A stretch of 64,000 nucleotides of DNA, taken from contig JAUNHC010000007.1 in assembly GCA_030524175.1 (NCBI GenBank), positions 62,001 to 126,000 on the forward strand. Reading direction: 5' to 3'. A program made the translations under genes and the position numbers. The notes below the pieces were generated by a model that did no database searches, was not told the DNA's origin, and saw nothing but the letters and a program-made list of their open reading frames with translations. Shown piece by piece: positions 54,137-64,000 of the stretch. The stretch's first letter is position 1; each line of letters begins with the position of its first letter. Origin of the DNA: Eubacteriales bacterium. GTDB taxonomy: Bacteria > Bacillota > Clostridia > Lachnospirales > Lachnospiraceae.

Positions 54137-54169
54137 CTCCACCGTAACTTCACATTCCTGTGATATACT
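54137..54169 (+). promoter_or_regulatory. Repeat-type promoter 1 (before first response regulator)
   Basis: Direct repeat CTCCAC (54137-54142) - 5 bp - CTTCAC (54148-54153), then exactly 10 bp and the -10 box TATACT (54164-54169). No -35 box; the repeat takes its place, as in activator-dependent promoters. The same design recurs at 56268, 59665 and 61819. Confidence 0.7.
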
Positions 54170-54189
54170 TGATGCCGGAGGTAGTATAA

Positions 54190-54861
54190 ATGGAGAAAAA
54201 AATACTGATCATAGAGGACGAGCGTCCCATTCAGAATATATTGAAAGCCTTTTCAACTGACGCCGGATATGCTGTAACTTTGGCTTGTGACGGTTTAGAC
54301 GGAATCACAGCTTTTCATAAAGAACGATTTGACCTTGTTTTACTTGATATTATGATGCCGAAACTGGATGGCTACACTGTCTGCAGGATGATCCGCAAAG
54401 AAGGCAATACGCCGGTCATTCTGCTCACAGCACTGGACGATGAGGAAAGCCAGATGAAAGGTTTTGATCTTTTAGCGGATGATTACATTACTAAGCCGTT
54501 CTCTGCACCGCTTGTGCTGCGTAGAATAGAAGCCGTGCTGCGGCGGGTACAAGCCGGAGAGGACGGCGGGGGAATTTTAACCTACCGGGAGATCCAGCTT
54601 AATCCCTATACCTACAAAGTTTTTGTTTCCGGAAAAGAGGTTGTATTCACTGCCCGTGAATTTGAAATCCTGCGTCTTTTTTTAGAGAATAAAGGGCGTG
54701 TGTTTACAAGGGAACAGCTGTTGGACCGGATTTGGAATTACGATTATATAGGGGATGATAAAATTGTAAACACCCACATCAAGAATATCCGCAAAAAGCT
54801 GGGTGGGGACTACATCGAAACGATCAGAGGGGTGGGATATCGAATTGATACAGAAAATTAA
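54190..54861 (+). CDS. OmpR-family response regulator
   Basis: A 223-residue regulator. The receiver has IIEDERPIQN acidic pocket, VLLDIMMPKLDG with Asp near residue 54, LLTALDDEE and DDYITKPFSAP. The winged-helix DNA-binding domain contains ARFEIL-like AREFEILRLFLENKGRVFTRE and the recognition helix ending in VNTHIKNIRKKL and GVGYRID. A GGAGGT site precedes the ATG. It overlaps the kinase start by 17 bp and is driven by repeat-type promoter 1. It likely binds that repeat to regulate itself and the ABC transporter downstream. Confidence 0.93.
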   Translation: MEKKILIIEDERPIQNILKAFSTDAGYAVTLACDGLDGITAFHKERFDLVLLDIMMPKLDGYTVCRMIRKEGNTPVILLTALDDEESQMKGFDLLADDYITKPFSAPLVLRRIEAVLRRVQAGEDGGGILTYREIQLNPYTYKVFVSGKEVVFTAREFEILRLFLENKGRVFTREQLLDRIWNYDYIGDDKIVNTHIKNIRKKLGGDYIETIRGVGYRIDTEN

Positions 54862-56197
54862 AAGCAGTCTGTTTCTGAAAATATTTTTATTGCTGGCAGT
54901 ACTTCTGTTTTCTGTAAGTTTCCTGCTTTATGGGATTGTTATGGCGGTTATGCCGGGGAGTTATCAGGCGCTGGCGGCATCTGATTACAATGAGCAGGTA
55001 AGAAAGCTTGTAACCGGATTGGAGGGAAGTTCCTTAGAAGAAGCAAATGACCGGCTCTATCATTTTTGCTTTGAATACAATGCTGCTGTTAAATTAGAGG
55101 GGAATGGTGATATTATTTCCTATGGCGGGGAACCGGAGCAGAAAGATACGAATGCTGTGCAGACAGCAACTGCTGTTTTAGAGTTGTCAGACGGAACATA
55201 TCAGCTTTATGTCAGCAGTTCCGGCAAGTTAGCAAATCAGATTACAGAGACTTTTTGGCGGCTGCTCCCTGTGATCACAGTGATCGTCCTCATTATTTCT
55301 TTTGGGGCAGCATTTTTTGTTTCGCGATTTCTGACGAAGCCAATTATAGAAATCAGCGGGATTTCCAAACGTCTGACTGCACTGGATATGACTTGGAGAT
55401 GTGACACTTCACGTACAGATGAAATTGGAATCCTTTCTGCAAACCTGAATACAATGGCGGGCCGCCTGGATAAAGCTCTCAATGAATTGACGGAAGCAAA
55501 TAAAGAATTGCAGGCAGATATTGAACGGGAACGCCGTCAAGAGAAATTGAGGGTGGATTTTTTTCGGTCAGTTTCACACGAGTTAAAAACCCCGGTTACT
55601 GTTCTGAAAGGTGAATTGGAGGGTATGATCTACCAAGTGGGTGAATACAAAGACCGGGACAGACATCTTCGGCAGTCTATGCGGACAGTGAATGAAATGG
55701 AATTATTGCTGCAGGAAATTCTTTCAGCTTCCCGGATGGCGGGTACAGATTTTAATCTGGCGGTTTCTGATGTGGATCTGAGTCGTCTTATCCGTGAGTG
55801 CTGCCGTAAATGGCAGGGTGCCGCGGAGGACAGGGAGCAACGGTTTACAACGGAGATTGAAGATTTCTGCCGTTATCAAGGCGACTTTGTTTTCCTGCAG
55901 AAAGCTGTTTCCAATGTGATTGGGAACGCTGTCCTCCATTCCCCAAAATGTGGAGCTATTACGGTTACTTTCAAAGACAGAGAGCTGCGTGTGGAAAATA
56001 CCGGAACTTTCATTGCGGATGAAGACCTGGACCATATTTATGAGCCGTTCTATCGGATTGACGCTTCTCGCAACAGCAAAACCGGCGGCAGTGGTTTAGG
56101 GCTGTATATTGTGAAAAACATTTTGGAACGCCATGGTTTACGGTATCAAATCTCAAATACCGACAATGGAGTATGTTTTACTATTGATTTTTCATAG
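54845..56197 (+). CDS. Sensor histidine kinase
   Basis: A 450-residue membrane kinase. Two helices (about 10-35 and 135-160) surround a short extracytoplasmic domain, then HAMP (TKPIIEISGISKRL), the dimerisation His in FRSVSHELKTPVTV, N box VIGNAVLHSP, and G2 box TGGSGLGLYIVKNI. The G1 box reads VENTGTF instead of DxGxG. It starts at TTG 54845, well spaced from GAGGGGTGGG; the open frame from 54803 extends into the regulator gene. Small sensor domain and position before ABC transporter genes match BceS/antimicrobial-peptide-type systems. Confidence 0.9.
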   Translation: MIQKIKSSLFLKIFLLLAVLLFSVSFLLYGIVMAVMPGSYQALAASDYNEQVRKLVTGLEGSSLEEANDRLYHFCFEYNAAVKLEGNGDIISYGGEPEQKDTNAVQTATAVLELSDGTYQLYVSSSGKLANQITETFWRLLPVITVIVLIISFGAAFFVSRFLTKPIIEISGISKRLTALDMTWRCDTSRTDEIGILSANLNTMAGRLDKALNELTEANKELQADIERERRQEKLRVDFFRSVSHELKTPVTVLKGELEGMIYQVGEYKDRDRHLRQSMRTVNEMELLLQEILSASRMAGTDFNLAVSDVDLSRLIRECCRKWQGAAEDREQRFTTEIEDFCRYQGDFVFLQKAVSNVIGNAVLHSPKCGAITVTFKDRELRVENTGTFIADEDLDHIYEPFYRIDASRNSKTGGSGLGLYIVKNILERHGLRYQISNTDNGVCFTIDFS

Positions 56198-56267
56198 TTA
56201 TAATATTATTGAGCCGGGGTGTTCATATGAGCAGTCCGGCTCAAACTATATCAAAACTTCCCCTGGG

Positions 56268-56300
56268 CTCCACCGGAGCTTCACTTTTCTTCTGTATGAT
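56268..56300 (+). promoter_or_regulatory. Repeat-type promoter 2 (before first permease)
   Basis: CTCCAC (56268-56273) - 5 bp - CTTCAC (56279-56284), 10 bp, -10 box TATGAT (56295-56300). Both hexamers are identical to those of promoter 1. Confidence 0.7.
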
Positions 56301-56330
56301 CACCCTATCAACTTACAGGAGGAACTATTT

Positions 56331-57623
56331 ATGAATGTAGTAAAACGAGCGGTTTTTTATATCATCCGCAAGTGGAAAAAGAGCTTTTTAATCTTTTCTA
56401 TTCTATTTGCAGCTTCGGTGCTGGTCCTATCCGGGCTTGCCATTTCGGATGCGCAGGAAGAACAGACGGAAGAGCTGCGGGGAACAACCGGTGTAAGCTT
56501 TACCGTAAGCCGTAATACGGCAACTGGCGGTTGGAGCAGCGGTGCAGGCGGATCATACAGTACCCAGGAATTTCTTTCTGACAAAATGCTGGAGAGCATT
56601 GGAAGCATTGACGGAGTCAAGGGTTATAATGCCTCGGTCAGGACAATCCTCTGCCTGTCTGATATGGACGGGCGTTGGCTGGAACAAATGCTGCCAAAAG
56701 GATATCCAATGGTTGACTGCCAATTCTACTCCTACGGCTGCATTAACTCAGAATACAATTCCCTGTTTCTTTCAGGAGCGTTAGTTATGTGCGAGGGCAC
56801 AACGATCACACCGGAAAAAGACAACGGAATCGTTATCAGCAGGGAGATTGCCCATAAATACGGTTTCAAGGCAGGCGATACGCTGCAGGCGGTGAACAAT
56901 CCTCTTTCTGACGATAAAACACTGACATTAGAGATCACAGGCATTTTTGATATTGCCGCGGATAAAACCGATGAAAAGAATAATTATAATGAAGCCTCCT
57001 ATTATGACTACGCTAACTATGCCTTTGTCAGCGAAGCAGCTATGAAAGACTTGTTGGAAAACTATGCTGATGTGGGCTATGCATCTGCGGATTTCTTTGT
57101 ATCAGACCCCGGGCAGCTGGACGCAGTCATACAAGAAGCACAGCGGATGGATTCTGTCAACTGGAACAACTTTGTTGTAACTGCCAATGATGAAGTATAT
57201 GAGAGGGTGGAATCTGCTGTATCGGATATGGGAACTCTGCTTTCCACACTCATTGTACTGATAACCGCAGTGAGTGCGGCCGTAGTGGTTTTGATTCTCT
57301 CTATGTGGATGCGAAGCCGTACAAAAGAGATTGGAATTTTACTGTCCGTTGGAATCCCGAAGGTTTTTATTCTTTTACAGTATGTATTAGAAACGTTGTT
57401 CATTGCAGTTGTATCTTTCCCCTTATCTTATTTCTTTGCCGGGAGAGCAGCAGGAAGCTTAGGGAGGATATTTGGAAAAACAACTGCGGTCATTTTAGTC
57501 ACTCCCCAGCATTTTATGACAGCGGCTATTGCGGGAACAGTCCTCTTAGTGTTTTCAACGCTTCTTTCCTGTATTCCCGTAATGCGTTACCGGCCGATAG
57601 AAATTTTGTCTCAAATGGAGTAA
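56331..57623 (+). CDS. MacB/FtsX-type ABC permease (first)
   Basis: A 430-residue permease with one N-terminal helix (MNVVKRAVFYIIRKWKKSFL, then the segment), a large extracytoplasmic domain (about 45-290) and three C-terminal helices in an FtsX domain (TKEIGILLSVGIPKVFILLQ coupling region). Within the external domain is the family stretch ITPEKDNGIVISREIAHKYG. The ATG at 56331 follows AGGAGG; the frame is open from 56133 but overlaps the kinase. It pairs with the next permease and an ATPase to form an exporter or peptide-sensing complex. Confidence 0.88.
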   Translation: MNVVKRAVFYIIRKWKKSFLIFSILFAASVLVLSGLAISDAQEEQTEELRGTTGVSFTVSRNTATGGWSSGAGGSYSTQEFLSDKMLESIGSIDGVKGYNASVRTILCLSDMDGRWLEQMLPKGYPMVDCQFYSYGCINSEYNSLFLSGALVMCEGTTITPEKDNGIVISREIAHKYGFKAGDTLQAVNNPLSDDKTLTLEITGIFDIAADKTDEKNNYNEASYYDYANYAFVSEAAMKDLLENYADVGYASADFFVSDPGQLDAVIQEAQRMDSVNWNNFVVTANDEVYERVESAVSDMGTLLSTLIVLITAVSAAVVVLILSMWMRSRTKEIGILLSVGIPKVFILLQYVLETLFIAVVSFPLSYFFAGRAAGSLGRIFGKTTAVILVTPQHFMTAAIAGTVLLVFSTLLSCIPVMRYRPIEILSQME

Positions 57624-57629
57624 GTATAT

Positions 57630-58970
57630 ATGAACAGTATAAAACGAGCGGGTTTTTATTTGGTACGGAAAAAGGGCAAGAGTCTCTCTTTGCTGTTGTT
57701 CCTGTTGGTAATGGCAACCATGATGTTGACCTGTATTTCCATACAGACCGCGGCCAAAGACGCAGGGGCTAATGTGCGCAAAGCTCTAATGGGAAGTTTT
57801 ACCGTCAATGCAAAAACACTTGAACATGGATTGGAAGAAAGTTGTATTGAGCAGATTCTCTCCATAGACGGGCAGAGCGGAAACTATAATCTGCGCTCTT
57901 ATACACAAGCCGTTTTCTTTGATAAAGAGGGCAATCCTCTCACGATCAGAACAGAGGGAGCGGCTGCAGTGCCGGAGGGGTATGAACATGCCGGGAAGGT
58001 TGCAGCAAACAGCTGCTCTGAAAAGGACACCTATTTCACCGAGGCAGGGTTCTCTTTGACAAAGGGGAAAGCTATTACACCAGAAGATAAAAATGCAGTA
58101 CTGCTCCACGAAGATTTTGCAGAACGAAACGGACTTACCCTTGGAGATACGTTATTTTTAGGAAGTGTTACAGAAGAGGATATAAAAACTGAAGTAACGG
58201 TACAGGGGCTTTTTACCAACACAGCTGAGCAAGATTCTCTTGGAAGGGCACCTTCCTATGATCTCTATGAAAATGTGGTGTTTACCGATATCTCTGCGTG
58301 TTCTATGCTGGTCTATGGTGAAACCGGATACTGCCAATATGGTGATTTCTATGTAAATGATCCGGAAATGCTGGATTCTATCATAGATAAGGTGAAAAAA
58401 ATACCCGGTATGGAATGGCAAAAATGTATTGTCACGAAATACGACAAGGACTATCAAAACGCAAAATCGTCATTAGAATCGCTGCATAATATCCTTCTTG
58501 CTTCTATGACAGTTATCACTGGCATATGTTTTCTCATTTTGGTCCTGCTTCTCATTTTCCGGATGAGAAACAGAGTACACGAGGTTGGAGTGCTGATGGC
58601 AATGGGGATCTCTAAGAAATCTATTTTAATACAGCAATTACTGGAAGTGTTTGCAGTGGCAACCATATCATTGGTGCTGACCTTTCCTGCCAGCTCTCTG
58701 ATCTCCGGTCAGACGGCAAGTTCACTGCTCTCACAGGCAGACACTGCCGAATATGAAGTGGTCAATCTTGTGGGAAACACCAAACAATCCAATACACAAG
58801 CATTATCTCCCCAGGGAACATTATTGGCAGAAATTCAAGTATCTATTTCAGCAAAAGACTATTTATCAGTTTGGGCGATAGGGCTTACACTTTGCGGTGC
58901 AGCGACTTCCATCGCATTGTGTCCCGTACTAAGGATGAAGCCAAAAAACATTCTATCGCAAATGAGTTAA
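57630..58970 (+). CDS. MacB/FtsX-type ABC permease (second)
   Basis: A 446-residue paralogue of the permease upstream. It starts MNSIKRAGFYLVRKKGKSLS and has the same 1+3 helix plan. The external domain has ITPEDKNAVLLHEDFAERNG; the FtsX coupling segment is VHEVGVLMAMGISKKSILIQ. It begins 6 bp after the first permease stop and ends 16 bp before the ATPase gene, so a heterodimer of two permeases with one ATPase is likely. Confidence 0.88.
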   Translation: MNSIKRAGFYLVRKKGKSLSLLLFLLVMATMMLTCISIQTAAKDAGANVRKALMGSFTVNAKTLEHGLEESCIEQILSIDGQSGNYNLRSYTQAVFFDKEGNPLTIRTEGAAAVPEGYEHAGKVAANSCSEKDTYFTEAGFSLTKGKAITPEDKNAVLLHEDFAERNGLTLGDTLFLGSVTEEDIKTEVTVQGLFTNTAEQDSLGRAPSYDLYENVVFTDISACSMLVYGETGYCQYGDFYVNDPEMLDSIIDKVKKIPGMEWQKCIVTKYDKDYQNAKSSLESLHNILLASMTVITGICFLILVLLLIFRMRNRVHEVGVLMAMGISKKSILIQQLLEVFAVATISLVLTFPASSLISGQTASSLLSQADTAEYEVVNLVGNTKQSNTQALSPQGTLLAEIQVSISAKDYLSVWAIGLTLCGAATSIALCPVLRMKPKNILSQMS

Positions 58971-58986
58971 AGGAGGCAGGATCATT

Positions 58987-59622
58987 ATGAATATTTTAGA
59001 GGTAAAGGGCGTAGAGTACGCCTATGAAAACAAAAGAAAGATTTTGAAAGGGATAGACGCCCAATTGGAGCAAGGGAAAATGTATGCCATTCTTGGTCCC
59101 TCCGGATGCGGTAAAACAACGCTGCTTTCTCTGTTGGGAGGGCTTGATGCGCCAAGCAGGGGCAAGATACTTTTTGAAGGACAGGACATTGCCGAAACCG
59201 GACTGGCGGAACACCGCCGTCATCATATTTCATTCGTGTTTCAAGGGTATAATCTTATCGACTATTTGACCCCAGCCGAGAATGTTGCGCTCACCAGCAG
59301 TCTGCCGCCCCTGCCTGTTTTAGAACGGCTGGGACTTACCAAGGAGGAATCAAAACGGAATGTGCTGAAGCTCTCCGGCGGCCAGCAGCAGCGTGTAGCC
59401 ATTGCCCGGGCATTGGCAAGTGAAGCCCCCATAATCCTCGCAGATGAGCCAACCGGAAATCTTGATGAGGACACGGCACAGGACATTACAAAAATACTCA
59501 AAGCCAGCGCACATGAACAGGGAAAATGCGTGGTGATGGTCACCCATTCTAATGAGTTGGCAAACCAGGCAGATGTTATCTTTTGGTTGAAGAAAGGGGA
59601 ATTAAGTGACGGTCTAAGGTAA
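58987..59622 (+). CDS. ABC exporter ATPase (LolD/MacB type)
   Basis: A 211-residue ATPase for the two permeases upstream. Walker [10 protein letters not shown], signature [16 protein letters not shown], Walker [14 protein letters not shown]-loop MVTHSNELA. The ALA...DEPTGNLD pattern is typical of the LolD/MacB/BceA group. An AAAGGAGG site precedes the ATG. Slightly short at the C-terminus, as usual for the group. Confidence 0.93.
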
Positions 59623-59664
59623 TGTATTCGGATTAAAACGGCATACTACAGATTTTTCGTGAAA

Positions 59665-59697
59665 ATTCATATTAGCTCCACAATAGTGTGATAAAAT
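59665..59697 (+). promoter_or_regulatory. Repeat-type promoter 3 (before second response regulator)
   Basis: ATTCAT (59665-59670) - 5 bp - CTCCAC (59676-59681), 10 bp, -10 box TAAAAT (59692-59697). The left hexamer is degenerate but the spacing is identical to the other three sites. Confidence 0.6.
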
Positions 59698-59722
59698 CCA
59701 ATAGAAGGAGGTAGGTACATGG

Positions 59723-60388
59723 ATGGCTACACTATTGATTGTTGAGGATGATATGGACACAAATGAGGCAGTATGCGAATACCTGCAGGAAGCGGGGTAC
59801 CATACAATATCTGCATTGGATGGGGAAGAAGCAATCCTGCTTTTTTCCAAACATAAAATTGATCTTGTTGTTTTGGATATTATGCTGCCGAAAATCAGCG
59901 GCCTGGTTGTCTTGAATACCATTCGCAAAACAGACCAGACACCGGTTCTCATGCTGACGGCTATGGAGGATGAATACACGCAGATTGCAAGTTTTGACGG
60001 ATTGGCTGACGACTATATAACGAAGCCCTTTTCTATGATTATTCTGGGCAAGCGGATTGAGGCCTTACTGCGCCGGAGCTGCCGGAATGAAAACGCAGTA
60101 ATATGGAAATACGGTACATTGACGGTTAATTTTTCTGCCTATTCCGCCCAGGATTCCAGGGGCGAGATTGATATCACCGCCAAGGAACTGGAACTGCTCA
60201 GGTTCTTGGTGGAACATAGGGGGCTGGTGCTGTCCCGTACACAGATTCTGGACGCGGTATGGGGGGAAAGCTCCTATGTCATTGACCGTTTGGTGGATAC
60301 TTATATTAAAAATCTGCGTAAAAAGCTGAGTCTTGACTGTATCAAAACAGTGAAAGGCGTTGGCTATAAACTTGAGGAAGAGAAATGA
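59723..60388 (+). CDS. OmpR-family response regulator (second)
   Basis: A 221-residue regulator similar to the one at 54190. The receiver has IVEDDMDTNEA, VVLDIMLPKISG with Asp near residue 51, LTAMEDEY and DDYITKPFSMI. The winged helix ends with DRLVDTYIKNLRKKL and GVGYKLE. A GGAGGT site precedes the ATG. Its end overlaps the next kinase gene by 4 bp (ATGA). It sits behind repeat-type promoter 3. Confidence 0.93.
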   Translation: MATLLIVEDDMDTNEAVCEYLQEAGYHTISALDGEEAILLFSKHKIDLVVLDIMLPKISGLVVLNTIRKTDQTPVLMLTAMEDEYTQIASFDGLADDYITKPFSMIILGKRIEALLRRSCRNENAVIWKYGTLTVNFSAYSAQDSRGEIDITAKELELLRFLVEHRGLVLSRTQILDAVWGESSYVIDRLVDTYIKNLRKKLSLDCIKTVKGVGYKLEEEK

Positions 60389-61797
60389 AAAAGTTAAAAA
60401 TATTTCCGAAGACTTTTTTATATACCTTGGGCCTGATGCTGATCATTGTGCTGCTTTCCCATGGGCTGATTTACTTCCTTATGCCAAAGGCGTACCACCA
60501 TCAGAAACAAAAGGCATTAGAAACGGATATTTTTTTGTTGGAGCAGGAAATTACCGATGCGGCACCGGAGGACAGGCTTTCTGCGGTGACCTCTTTTGCT
60601 GCCGGATGGAAAGCAAATATTTCTGTATATTATGAGGGCCTTACCTATGAGGTGAATTTACTCGGGGAGGAAAGTGATACCTTTGACGCCCCGGGGAGTA
60701 AGAAAGATACCATTGTCAGATTCAGTAAAGATGATCACGGTTCAAAAATATCCTTGGCTGAAAATACGACCGGCGGTGCTGACTTTTTTAGGGTTTCACA
60801 GAAGTTTTCAGATGGGAAAGGGCACGTTCAGGCGGTGGTTTCCCGTCAGCAGATAGAGGAGGCTGTCAGTGCTGTATTGGCCATACTTCCATTGACCGCT
60901 GCGATATGTACTATTATTTCTGCTCTGTTTGCATTTTTTTATTCCAGAATGCTTACAAGGCCTATTTGTCAGATCAGCAGTGCCACGGAAAAGATGCAGC
61001 GGTTAGAGCCGGAGGCCCGTTGTATGAATGAAACGCAGGATGAGATTGGTGTGCTGGCTGACAATGTGAATGGTTTATACCATAATCTTCTGACAACCAT
61101 TCATGAATTAGAGCAGGAGATCAGGAAAGTGGAAGAGGCAGATGTGCAGAAAACTAATTTTCTCCGGGCAGCGTCCCATGAACTGAAAACTCCGGTTACA
61201 GCCGTGAACGCCATACTGGAGAATATGATTTTGGGCGTAGGCAGGTATAAAGACCGGGATACCTATCTCGCCAGATGTAAAAAGCTGATGGAAGGACTTG
61301 CAGATATGATACGGGATATCCTTGACACAACCAGGACGGAGTTTTCAGGCGGGCAGGAGCTTATAGAAGTTGATCTTGCAGATACCCTCAAAGGTGTGGC
61401 AGAGCCGTATGAAATCATAGCAAAGACAAAAGGAATTAAGTTTGACATGCAGCTTGAGGAGCCTTTTGTTGTGCAGCTTCCAAGGGGAATGATTGAGAAG
61501 GCCCTCTCTAACATTGTGGCAAATGCGGTTTCCTATACAAGAGAAGGAGGTATCATTTCTGTTTATTTAGGGGAGGGCCGGATTATTATAGAGAATGAGT
61601 GTGCCGTTATATCGCCGGACCATCTTTCCCATATCTTTGAGCCATTTTACCGGACGGACTATGGGCGCAGCAGAGTGACAGGCGGAAATGGGCTGGGGTT
61701 GTATATTGTTTCGTCTATTCTGAAGTCTCTCAGCATCAAATACAAATTTGTTCCCTCTGAGGTGCTCAACGGGATGTCCTTTCAGATTTTATTCTAG
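60385..61797 (+). CDS. Sensor histidine kinase (second)
   Basis: A 470-residue membrane kinase with two helices (about 12-32 and 170-190), a small external domain, HAMP (TRPICQISSATEKMQ), the His in LRAASHELKTPVTA, N box IVANAVSYTREGG and G2 box VTGGNGLGLYIVSS. The G1 box is replaced by IIENECAVI, lacking the usual Asp-x-Gly-x-Gly. It is translationally coupled to the regulator upstream and precedes the second permease set. Confidence 0.9.
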   Translation: MKKLKIFPKTFLYTLGLMLIIVLLSHGLIYFLMPKAYHHQKQKALETDIFLLEQEITDAAPEDRLSAVTSFAAGWKANISVYYEGLTYEVNLLGEESDTFDAPGSKKDTIVRFSKDDHGSKISLAENTTGGADFFRVSQKFSDGKGHVQAVVSRQQIEEAVSAVLAILPLTAAICTIISALFAFFYSRMLTRPICQISSATEKMQRLEPEARCMNETQDEIGVLADNVNGLYHNLLTTIHELEQEIRKVEEADVQKTNFLRAASHELKTPVTAVNAILENMILGVGRYKDRDTYLARCKKLMEGLADMIRDILDTTRTEFSGGQELIEVDLADTLKGVAEPYEIIAKTKGIKFDMQLEEPFVVQLPRGMIEKALSNIVANAVSYTREGGIISVYLGEGRIIIENECAVISPDHLSHIFEPFYRTDYGRSRVTGGNGLGLYIVSSILKSLSIKYKFVPSEVLNGMSFQILF

Positions 61798-61818
61798 CTT
61801 TATATTTTGAGATTCTGA

Positions 61819-61851
61819 TTTCATACTGGCTCCACATACTGCCCATATAGT
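61819..61851 (+). promoter_or_regulatory. Repeat-type promoter 4 (before third permease)
   Basis: TTTCAT (61819-61824) - 5 bp - CTCCAC (61830-61835), 10 bp, -10 box TATAGT (61846-61851). Same geometry as the other three. Confidence 0.6.
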
Positions 61852-61903: not shown

Positions 61904-63136
61904 TTGGACATTTTTAAGCGGGCCGTTCTTTTTAATATACGGAAAAAAGAAAAAAGCCTGACACTTTTTTTGCTTTTTGCATTGATCACATTATTCACTA
62001 CAGTGGGTTTTTCCGTTCTGAATGCAGCACAGTCGGCAGCAGCCAGGCTCCGGGAAACCATAGGGGCATCTTTTACGCTGCAGGGGAAGCCTGAGGAATT
62101 CGATTTCAGTACAGACGGGAAACATTACAGCACACAGCTGGTTCCTATATCACAGCAGATGATTGATGGGATCACAAATAATAAGGAGATAAAAGGGTAT
62201 AATGCCCGGCAGTCAGCTCCGGTGTATGCAGATGGTCTGTACTTCACCTCCGGCACTTCATACGGAACAATTTCCGCAAATACTGCGACAGAGTGGAACC
62301 GCAATTTCACCAACGGAACCCTGACTCTGGAGAGGGGGAAACATATTACGGGAGAAGGACATGGGACGGCCCTGATCAGCCGGGAGCTGGCAAAGGAAAA
62401 TAATCTGGATGTGGGTGACTGCATATCTATTTCTTATGCAGAAGATAATCTGGCTGCAAATGCAGTGCCTTTACAGATTGCAGGTATCTATGTGAGCGAT
62501 GCGGATATGGAGTTTGACAATGACACAATTTTTACAGGACATGATAGTTATTGGGAATTAACCGGGGATACCCCAGGTACTTTTTCAGGCGGCGTGGACT
62601 TTTTTGTAACTGATCCGGCCAGGCTTGATCTGGTCATAGAGCAGATTCGGAAAAATGAATCTGTCATGTGGGATAATTATATACTGCAGGCGGACGCGAC
62701 GGAATATAAGGCCATAGCTGATCAGCTGGCATCTATGAGACGGCTTACCACACTCTTGATTGTTTCATCGGTGGTTGTCAGTGCGGTTATCCTGTTTCTG
62801 ATTCTTTCTATGCGGATAAAGAGCCGTATCCATGAGACGGGTATATTGCTTGCGGTTGGAGTTTCTAAAGGTGCAGTCATTTTGCAGTTTATAACAGAGA
62901 CAATGGTTCTCCTGTTTCTGGCAATCTTGGTTTCCTGCCCCATTGGTTATGCAGCAGCAGTGCAGATTGAGACTTTCCTCCAGGACAGGATAGGGGTGAT
63001 CAGCATAGGTGTTCCCGTTCCCACACTTTTACTGCAATATTCCGTTGAGACAGTCATTGTCCTGTTTGGCGTGGCGGCAGCGGCTTATCCTATTATCAAA
63101 CTGAAACCAAAAGACATTTTATCCAAAATGAGTTAA
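61904..63136 (+). CDS. MacB/FtsX-type ABC permease (third)
   Basis: A 410-residue paralogue of the permeases at 56331 and 57630. It starts at TTG 61904, 8 bp after AGGAGG, as MDIFKRAVLFNIRKKEKSLT. The external domain contains ITGEGHGTALISRELAKENN, matching the other paralogues, and the FtsX region HETGILLAVGVSKGAVILQF with three helices. The next permease begins 11 bp after the stop. Confidence 0.88.
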   Translation: MDIFKRAVLFNIRKKEKSLTLFLLFALITLFTTVGFSVLNAAQSAAARLRETIGASFTLQGKPEEFDFSTDGKHYSTQLVPISQQMIDGITNNKEIKGYNARQSAPVYADGLYFTSGTSYGTISANTATEWNRNFTNGTLTLERGKHITGEGHGTALISRELAKENNLDVGDCISISYAEDNLAANAVPLQIAGIYVSDADMEFDNDTIFTGHDSYWELTGDTPGTFSGGVDFFVTDPARLDLVIEQIRKNESVMWDNYILQADATEYKAIADQLASMRRLTTLLIVSSVVVSAVILFLILSMRIKSRIHETGILLAVGVSKGAVILQFITETMVLLFLAILVSCPIGYAAAVQIETFLQDRIGVISIGVPVPTLLLQYSVETVIVLFGVAAAAYPIIKLKPKDILSKMS

Positions 63137-63147
63137 GGAGAAAAATT

Positions 63148-64000
63148 ATGAATTTATGGAAACGGGCATTGTTGTATACAATGCGTAAAAAAGGAAAAAC
63201 CGGGATTCTGTTTCTTGTTCTGTTTGTCATGTCCACCTTTGTCCTCACCGGACTTTCTATCCGGTCAGCAGCCGGCCAGTCGGCAGGAGAGCTGCGGCAG
63301 TCTGTAGGCGGCAGCATCAAACTGATCCGGGATGAGGAGAAAAGCCAGAATTGGACCTATGAACAGGGAATAGGCGGTACAATGATCGGTTACACCGGTA
63401 CGCCCATCACGGATAATGAGATAGAAAAGATCATGCAGGTAGAAGGAATACAAAGTTATAACGGCATAGGATATGGAAGTGTTTATGCACGGGATTTTTC
63501 CTTTATTTCAGGGATTCAATTCAGTGCCGGGAGCGATTACAGCAGTCTGCCCTCTGTAACCTACTCTGAATCTTTCAATTATTTTAGGAGAAAGGCTTTT
63601 CAGTTAGTGCAAGGGCGGCATATCATCCCGGAGGATGACCATGTTGTCTTGATCAGCACTGCTCTTGCAGAAAAAAACGGTTTAAAGCTGGGCGATACGA
63701 TCACAGTGCAATGTGCCAATGATGCAGGGGGGTATCCGGATGTGACACTGAAGATCATCGGAATTTATAAAAGTACAATAGAAGAAGGGCAGTTTAATAC
63801 GACTTCCACAGATAAGAGAAACCGCTTGATCATTGACCACCGGGCTATGAAGGAGATCATGCAGACAGACACCATACAGTATGATAATGGTGTGGAGTTT
63901 TTTGTAGACGACCCAAAGGAAATTGAGAGGATTACGGCAGAGATTCAGAAGCTGGATCTTGACTGGGGCTGCTTTAAGCTGACAGTGGATAATTCTGCAT
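63148..64000 (+). CDS. MacB/FtsX-type ABC permease (fourth, 3'-truncated by window)
   Basis: Starts at ATG 63148 after AAGGAG; 284 residues are visible and the frame is open to the window end. MNLWKRALLYTMRKKGKTGI is the family start, followed by the N-terminal helix and an external domain with IIPEDDHVVLISTALAEKNG. The C-terminal FtsX helices and probably an ATPase gene lie outside the window. Confidence 0.88.
   Translation, partial: MNLWKRALLYTMRKKGKTGILFLVLFVMSTFVLTGLSIRSAAGQSAGELRQSVGGSIKLIRDEEKSQNWTYEQGIGGTMIGYTGTPITDNEIEKIMQVEGIQSYNGIGYGSVYARDFSFISGIQFSAGSDYSSLPSVTYSESFNYFRRKAFQLVQGRHIIPEDDHVVLISTALAEKNGLKLGDTITVQCANDAGGYPDVTLKIIGIYKSTIEEGQFNTTSTDKRNRLIIDHRAMKEIMQTDTIQYDNGVEFFVDDPKEIERITAEIQKLDLDWGCFKLTVDNSA

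Follow-up and report, generated by a model that had tools for sequence, protein, structure and literature searches.

How are two neighbouring sensor–transporter modules controlled when their promoters look alike? The question is raised by a 64-kb stretch of DNA from a bacterium of the Lachnospiraceae (assembly GCA_030524175.1, contig JAUNHC010000007.1, positions 62,001 to 126,000; hereafter the window), in which two two-component systems, each a response regulator (RR) with a histidine kinase (HK), alternate with two ATP-binding cassette (ABC) transporters. Two hexamers 11 bp apart and, 10 bp further on, a -10 box precede each of the four transcription units, namely RR1–HK1 (system 1), the first transporter, RR2–HK2 (system 2) and the second transporter. 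The original prediction took this common geometry as the mark of one regulon over both systems and both transporters. We favour, with a probability of roughly 0.8, two modules that work in parallel, each activating itself through promoters of the PhoB type.

In the mechanism that we propose, each kinase would phosphorylate its own regulator, which would then bind as a head-to-tail dimer to the two hexamers; these end 10 bp short of the -10 box and take the place of a -35 box. The bound dimer would recruit RNA polymerase to the promoter of its own RR–HK operon and to that of the adjacent FtsX-type ABC transporter, whatever the latter may export or sense. RR1 would read CTCCAC-N5-CTYCAC (54137 and 56268) and RR2 WTTCAT-N5-CTCCAC (59665 and 61819).

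Four promoters without a -35 box

The four sites are the following; scores are for the RR1-class and RR2-class matrices introduced below.

54137..54153, + strand: operator 1 (RR1 class), CTCCAC-CGTAA-CTTCAC-N10-TATACT, precedes RR1–HK1; 20.8/-1.7 bits
54161..54169, + strand: extended -10 of the RR1 promoter, TG-A-TATACT, its -10 box 10 bp past operator 1
56268..56284, + strand: operator 2 (RR1 class), CTCCAC-CGGAG-CTTCAC-N10-TATGAT, precedes the first transporter; 18.2/-4.7 bits
56295..56300, + strand: -10 box TATGAT, 10 bp past operator 2, without the TG of an extended -10
59665..59681, + strand: operator 3 (RR2 class), ATTCAT-ATTAG-CTCCAC-N10-TAAAAT, precedes RR2–HK2; -1.3/15.5 bits
59689..59697, + strand: extended -10 of the RR2 promoter, TG-A-TAAAAT, its -10 box 10 bp past operator 3
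61819..61835, + strand: operator 4 (RR2 class), TTTCAT-ACTGG-CTCCAC-N10-TATAGT, precedes the second transporter; -8.7/25.1 bits
61846..61851, + strand: -10 box TATAGT, 10 bp past operator 4, without the TG of an extended -10

Letters, spacing and coordinates were exactly as first claimed. Searched on both strands of the window, the pattern HTYCAY-N5-YTYCAY-N10-TANNNT gave four matches, precisely these sites, compared with a mean of 0.035 and a maximum of 1 in 200 first-order Markov copies; the pattern was composed after the sites had been seen, and the weight of the argument rests on other evidence. The claimed lack of a -35 box also held, as no sigma-70-like -35/-10 pair scoring at least 9 of 12 was found at any of the four sites. 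In the region as a whole 13 such pairs were found, with 15.2 expected by chance.

Some minor features surround site 2. It may be a triple repeat, since CTTCCC, CTCCAC and CTTCAC follow each other by eye at 11-bp steps (56257–56284). A terminator-like hairpin overlaps operator 2 (56265–56281), but such hairpins are no commoner than chance predicts (7 against an expectation of 7.4). In the stretch from HK1 to operator 2 (56209–56244) we noted by eye an inverted repeat, TTGAGCCGG ... CCGGCTCAA, without a T run; a similar hairpin, this one with a T run, takes the same place in the paralogous array C31 described below.

Conservation with the regulator genes

Relatives of RR1 were collected at 80 loci, 79 of which had at least 60 bp of upstream sequence (L086, with 17 bp, was dropped). 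Upstream of the regulator gene, the double hexamer with at most one mismatch together with TANNNT at +10 was present in 56 of these 79 loci, and in 57 when the -10 box was not required. The spacing is invariant: all but one of the 44 unique sites had TANNNT at offset 10, and it never stood at 9 or 11; the offsets 5 and 15 had 20 and 15. The RR1-class consensus reads CTCCACCnAAACTCCAC-N10-TAcACT. A matrix built from the regulator promoters matched 97 times at 16 bits or more in the 80 loci (938,450 bases), and not once in one Markov control. Fifty-eight of these matches lie at regulator promoters, as expected by construction; of the 39 elsewhere, 35 have a homologue of a permease or ATPase 23–195 bp downstream. 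At locus L041 (6083–7001) 886 bp separate the operator from the RR1 homologue, and in the near relatives L043 and L044 the operator starts 61 bp before the gene; L041 may thus carry an insertion of about 0.8 kb between operator and regulator gene.

In agreement with the head-to-tail dimer first suggested for the -35 position, this geometry fits a regulator of the OmpR/PhoB family, is conserved with the regulator genes and has the -10 box fixed at +10. Alternatively, the motif could be the target of an unrelated regulator, or a core promoter element, instead of the site of the adjacent response regulator. We consider this very improbable, as the motif tracks this regulator family. A tighter consensus pattern gave 13 matches in 8 of 397 genomes of the bacterial family, two of them in the window's own genome, and none in the control. 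All 13 precede an RR1-family regulator or a permease homologue; for the window's own site the best printed match was HK1, and the coordinates place RR1 20 bp downstream. Moreover, the hexamers vary with the recognition-helix class at a constant period of 11 bp, most clearly in the HIMN class treated below.

In the window's own 5.95-Mb assembly, YTYCAY-N5-CTYCAC-N10-TANNNT had five matches, against one for a reversed-pattern control: three window sites (59665 begins with A and is outside the pattern) and the two promoters of the C31 array. In 98 relatives a looser pattern gave mostly background, with 28 matches against 17 in the control and only 6 of the 28 at such arrays. With 22 of 28 matches elsewhere, it was rejected as a diagnostic. 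In scans that allowed mismatches only the top matches are meaningful, i.e., 61819 at zero mismatches and the four array sites at zero to one; one RR1-class match with two mismatches precedes the regulator of a third paralogue, C55. A search for RR1 across 398 genomes of the phylum returned ten with E of at most 1e-60. Among the nine loci outside the window's genome, L190 has an RR1-class operator and L191, by eye, a CTACAC repeat.

Two operator classes and probably no single regulon

The four sites fall into two classes, CTCCAC/CTTCAC at sites 1 and 2 and WTTCAT/CTCCAC at sites 3 and 4. Matrices for both were trained on other genomes, with 24 unique sites for the RR1 class and 8 for the RR2 class (ten sites copied by hand; the looser-looking L150 and L151 were excluded). 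Each window site scores over 16 bits higher with the matrix of its own class than with the other, and in leave-one-out tests all 24 RR1-class and all 8 RR2-class sites were assigned to their own class. A second genome with adjacent RR1 and RR2 modules (L042) contains exactly four sites with the same split, the RR1/RR2 matrix scores being 28.6/3.1, 27.4/3.1, 5.8/22.9 and -4.5/23.9 (the gene after the fourth site is past the contig end). For RR2 orthologues, six stretches whose RR2 homologue has 59.8% identity or more were fetched; in five of them, two being near copies, TTTCAY-N5-YTCCAY stands before the regulator and the adjacent permease. The single consensus first proposed, yTTCAy-n5-CTyCAC-n10-TAtaaT, hence lumps two operator types, and a single operator model for all four promoters was rejected on the matrix test and on L042.

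By the same evidence the idea of one regulon gave way. That RR1 and RR2 each act at all four promoters would agree with the same geometry and the common CTCCAC half-site, and there are precedents: pneumococcal VncR and CbpR both induce vex123 (PMC11034029, excerpt), and PsdR binds ApsR promoters (PMC10858260, excerpt). We nevertheless find it unlikely here. Each site fits its own class, L042 agrees, and the recognition helices differ (KIVNTHIKN in RR1, RLVDTYIKN in RR2). The two systems also differ in the kinase residues past the phosphorylated histidine and in the regulator alpha-1, which we take to be the specificity positions. Given the common half-site, RR1 and RR2 may still bind weakly at each other's sites.

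As a side observation, two RR2 modules (L144 and L149) lie about 19 kb from each other in genome G249, one of them nearly identical to the module of G273 (L146). L144 and L146 share open reading frames (ORFs) of 617 and 177 amino acids, which suggests a mobile element.

Possible promoter tiers and proposed mode of action

Among the four window promoters, those of the two regulators (sites 1 and 3) carry an extended -10, which is absent from the transporter promoters (sites 2 and 4). Of 42 unique regulator promoters in the RR1 class, 36 have the TG of an extended -10, compared with 0 of 27 unique other sites, 2 of which do not precede an identified transporter gene. This count covers all 97 matrix matches and supersedes a list of 22 transporter promoters that had omissions; the matrix with which the non-regulator sites were found itself favours TG at this position. 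Extended -10 elements at the regulator promoters would allow a basal, regulator-independent transcription, and the two window transporter promoters lacking them would depend more strongly on the activator, being expressed mainly upon induction.

Bound regulator might conversely repress, as an extended -10 could let the regulator promoters fire without an activator. We hold this to be quite improbable. The four sites have no -35 box and keep a fixed spacing to the -10 box; moreover, the transporter promoters, with neither -35 box nor extended -10, would be nearly silent if they were not activated.

Several results weigh against two self-activating modules with this type of promoter. In the RR2 class the contrast in extended -10 elements is weaker (6 of 7 regulator against 2 of 5 transporter promoters). 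Twenty-two of the 79 RR1-family loci have no site within one mismatch, and these loci are related to one another, so their counts are not independent. Four of the 39 non-regulator matches have no transporter homologue directly downstream: at three none was found (one offered only 266 bases to inspect), and the fourth is L041. The RR2-class matrix is small, and one of its 8 unique training sites is letter-identical to 61819. L148, the sixth of the fetched RR2 stretches, has no RR2-class site and another recognition helix, and the RR2-like L169 has no such site within 170 bp. Genome-wide, neither the RR2-class pattern with one mismatch (5 matches, 8 in the control) nor the RR1-class pattern with two (7 and 6) was enriched. 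Finally, a sigma-70-like pair, TTTACT/TATAAT (10 of 12), lies at 56177–56204, some 65 bp ahead of site 2, and could be another promoter.

Recognition helix and hexamer

The 11-bp period also appears when hexamer letters are ignored. An exact 6-base repeat at shift 11 was found in 30 of 44 loci with an RR1 site and in 16 of the other 74 loci; no other shift between 7 and 20 gave more than 5 in either group. When 5-of-6 repeats of period 11 were required with the -10 box in its fixed place, 45 of 54 RR1-class and 9 of 17 HIMN-class upstream regions were positive, other periods giving at most one. The remaining helix classes had 3/12, 2/9, 0/10, 0/3, 0/7 and 0/6; the ER, RR2b, VKK and other classes account for 0 of 26 in this strict test at fixed spacing.

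The pairs of helix and hexamer are KIxNTHIKN with CTCCAC/CTYCAC, DRxxDTYIKN with TTTCAY/YTCCAY, and VNFHIMN with ACTAAT, the HIMN operator being ACTAAT-N5-ACTAAT. Three RR2-like loci with [GS]R for KN in the helix (L168, L187 and L188) have, by eye, a second half-site TGACA(C/A) at the same distance to the -10 box, a possible specificity switch. Several ER-class loci show CTACAC-N5-TCACAA, likewise by eye.

We may speculate, at even odds, that the clade forms a natural specificity series with insulated duplicates and two-tier promoters, in which regulators have an extended -10 and basal transcription and transporters have none and respond to the activator only. The 11-bp period and the 10 bp to the -10 box would be kept as recognition helix and hexamer changed in step, and duplicated sensor–transporter modules would thereby be insulated at the DNA. 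Such a series could help to study how specificity in the OmpR family changes after duplication.

Paralogous arrays and possible cross-talk

The array on contig C31 has the order RR–HK followed by permease–permease–permease–ATPase. One of its two pattern matches precedes the regulator and the other the first permease, with RR1-class scores of 23.5 and 23.6. RR1 is 44% identical to RR2 and 64% to the C31 regulator, and HK1 is 33% identical to HK2 and 45% to the C31 kinase. The C31 regulator has the RR1 recognition helix except for two residues and an identical alpha-1 stretch, IQNILKAF; in the C31 kinase, the stretch LKGELEGMIYQVGEYKDR after the histidine region is identical to HK1. System 2 deviates from both at the recognition helix, at alpha-1 and in the post-histidine stretch of the kinase.

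Because helix, operator, alpha-1 and kinase residues are shared with C31 and differ in system 2, cross-talk, if there is any, is predicted to be likelier between system 1 and C31 than between systems 1 and 2. A cross-regulation of this kind, perhaps including C55, would be compatible with self-activating modules, and we advance it tentatively, at somewhat less than even odds. In its favour are the same operator class at both C31 promoters, the near-identical helix and the two identical stretches; against it, the regulators share only 64% and the kinases 45% identity, and the sensor parts of the kinases differ. The third paralogue, on contig C55 (L152:8637–10986), has a regulator 55% identical to RR1, a kinase of 564 amino acids and CTCCAT-N5-CTCCAT 85 bp before the regulator gene; no ABC permease directly adjoins it.

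By eye, genes resembling those of mobile elements (exonuclease-like, primase-like and a small regulator) precede the C31 array (L001:107–10113). The array may have been acquired.

Relation to known systems

The proposed mechanism is a textbook one, and the promoter is of a known type; the operator family described here is well conserved and apparently undescribed, as the motif was not found in the literature searched, which comprised open-licence full texts only. Among the closest known systems is PhoB, a member of the same OmpR/PhoB family. The Pho box consists of two 11-bp direct repeats to which PhoB binds head to tail (PMC4415409, excerpt), and it overlaps the -35 region of the phoA promoter (PMC3348028, excerpt). 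The hexamers differ, and each regulator here would control no more than its own operon and the transporter next to it. With the PhoB family model TIGR02154, RR1 and RR2 reach 187.7 and 181.5 bits, below its cut-off of 296.2. VanR-B/VanS-B ranks first among the NCBIfam matches of RR1 and HK2 and second among those of RR2 and HK1; the regulators score 203.2 (RR1) and 171.6 bits (RR2) with NF000402, far below the cut-off of 480. Among the ORFs of L002 and L003, whose first 60 residues were inspected by eye, none next to the array looked like a vancomycin-resistance gene; no resistance-gene search was made.

Vex consists of two permeases and one ATPase, and in VncRS–Vex123, too, a two-component system lies beside the transporter that it controls. 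Pneumococcal VncR controls vex123, which CbpR also induces, and the motifs of both were stated to be unknown in 2024 (PMC11034029, excerpt). In group B Streptococcus, VncS locked in its active state induces an adjacent gene as well as its own operon (PMC11502775, excerpt), a similar logic. This likeness is one of gene layout and published descriptions. RR_1586 of Clostridioides difficile, an OmpR-family regulator, recognises directly repeated 11-bp units and has one such site at its own operon; it differs in its TTAAG-type hexamer and its broad predicted regulon (PMC6222199, excerpt). PsdRSAB and ApsRSAB of Lacticaseibacillus are likewise paralogous sensor–regulator–ABC modules, but these are Bce-like, and cross-binding was demonstrated there (PMC10858260, excerpt), whereas the operators diverge here.

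The sites offer a candidate operator for a widespread family of sensor–transporter modules of gut bacteria. In place of a shared regulon, the sharper prediction is one of parallel modules insulated by diverged half-sites, with C31 as the likely partner of any cross-talk.

Genes of the array

The coding regions of the array are:

54190..54861, + strand: RR1, OmpR/PhoB-family response regulator, 223 amino acids (Pfam Response_reg and Trans_reg_C; recognition helix GDDKIVNTHIKNIRKKL by alignment)
54803..56197, + strand: HK1, sensor histidine kinase (HAMP, HisKA, HATPase_c), listed from GTG, true start uncertain
56331..57623, + strand: first transporter, permease 1, FtsX-like (Pfam PF02687)
57630..58970, + strand: first transporter, permease 2, FtsX-like (Pfam PF02687)
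58987..59622, + strand: first transporter, ABC ATPase (Pfam PF00005)
59723..60388, + strand: RR2, OmpR/PhoB-family response regulator, 221 amino acids (Pfam; recognition helix VIDRLVDTYIKNLRKKL)
60385..61797, + strand: HK2, sensor histidine kinase (Pfam HisKA, HATPase_c)
61904..63136, + strand: second transporter, permease 1, FtsX-like (Pfam PF02687)
63148..64000, + strand: second transporter, permease 2, continues past the window end
L002:16456–17226, outside the window: second transporter, ATPase, after permease 2

In both regulators the receiver domain and the winged-helix Trans_reg_C domain score above the Pfam cut-offs. The division into four units stands, with one addition: the fourth, first described as permease–permease, is permease–permease–ATPase, its ATPase gene lying past the window end. 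Gene order and Pfam give each module the layout of VncRS–Vex, a pair of FtsX permeases and an ATPase next to the two-component system. By analogy, export of peptides or antimicrobials would be our guess for the cargo of these transporters.

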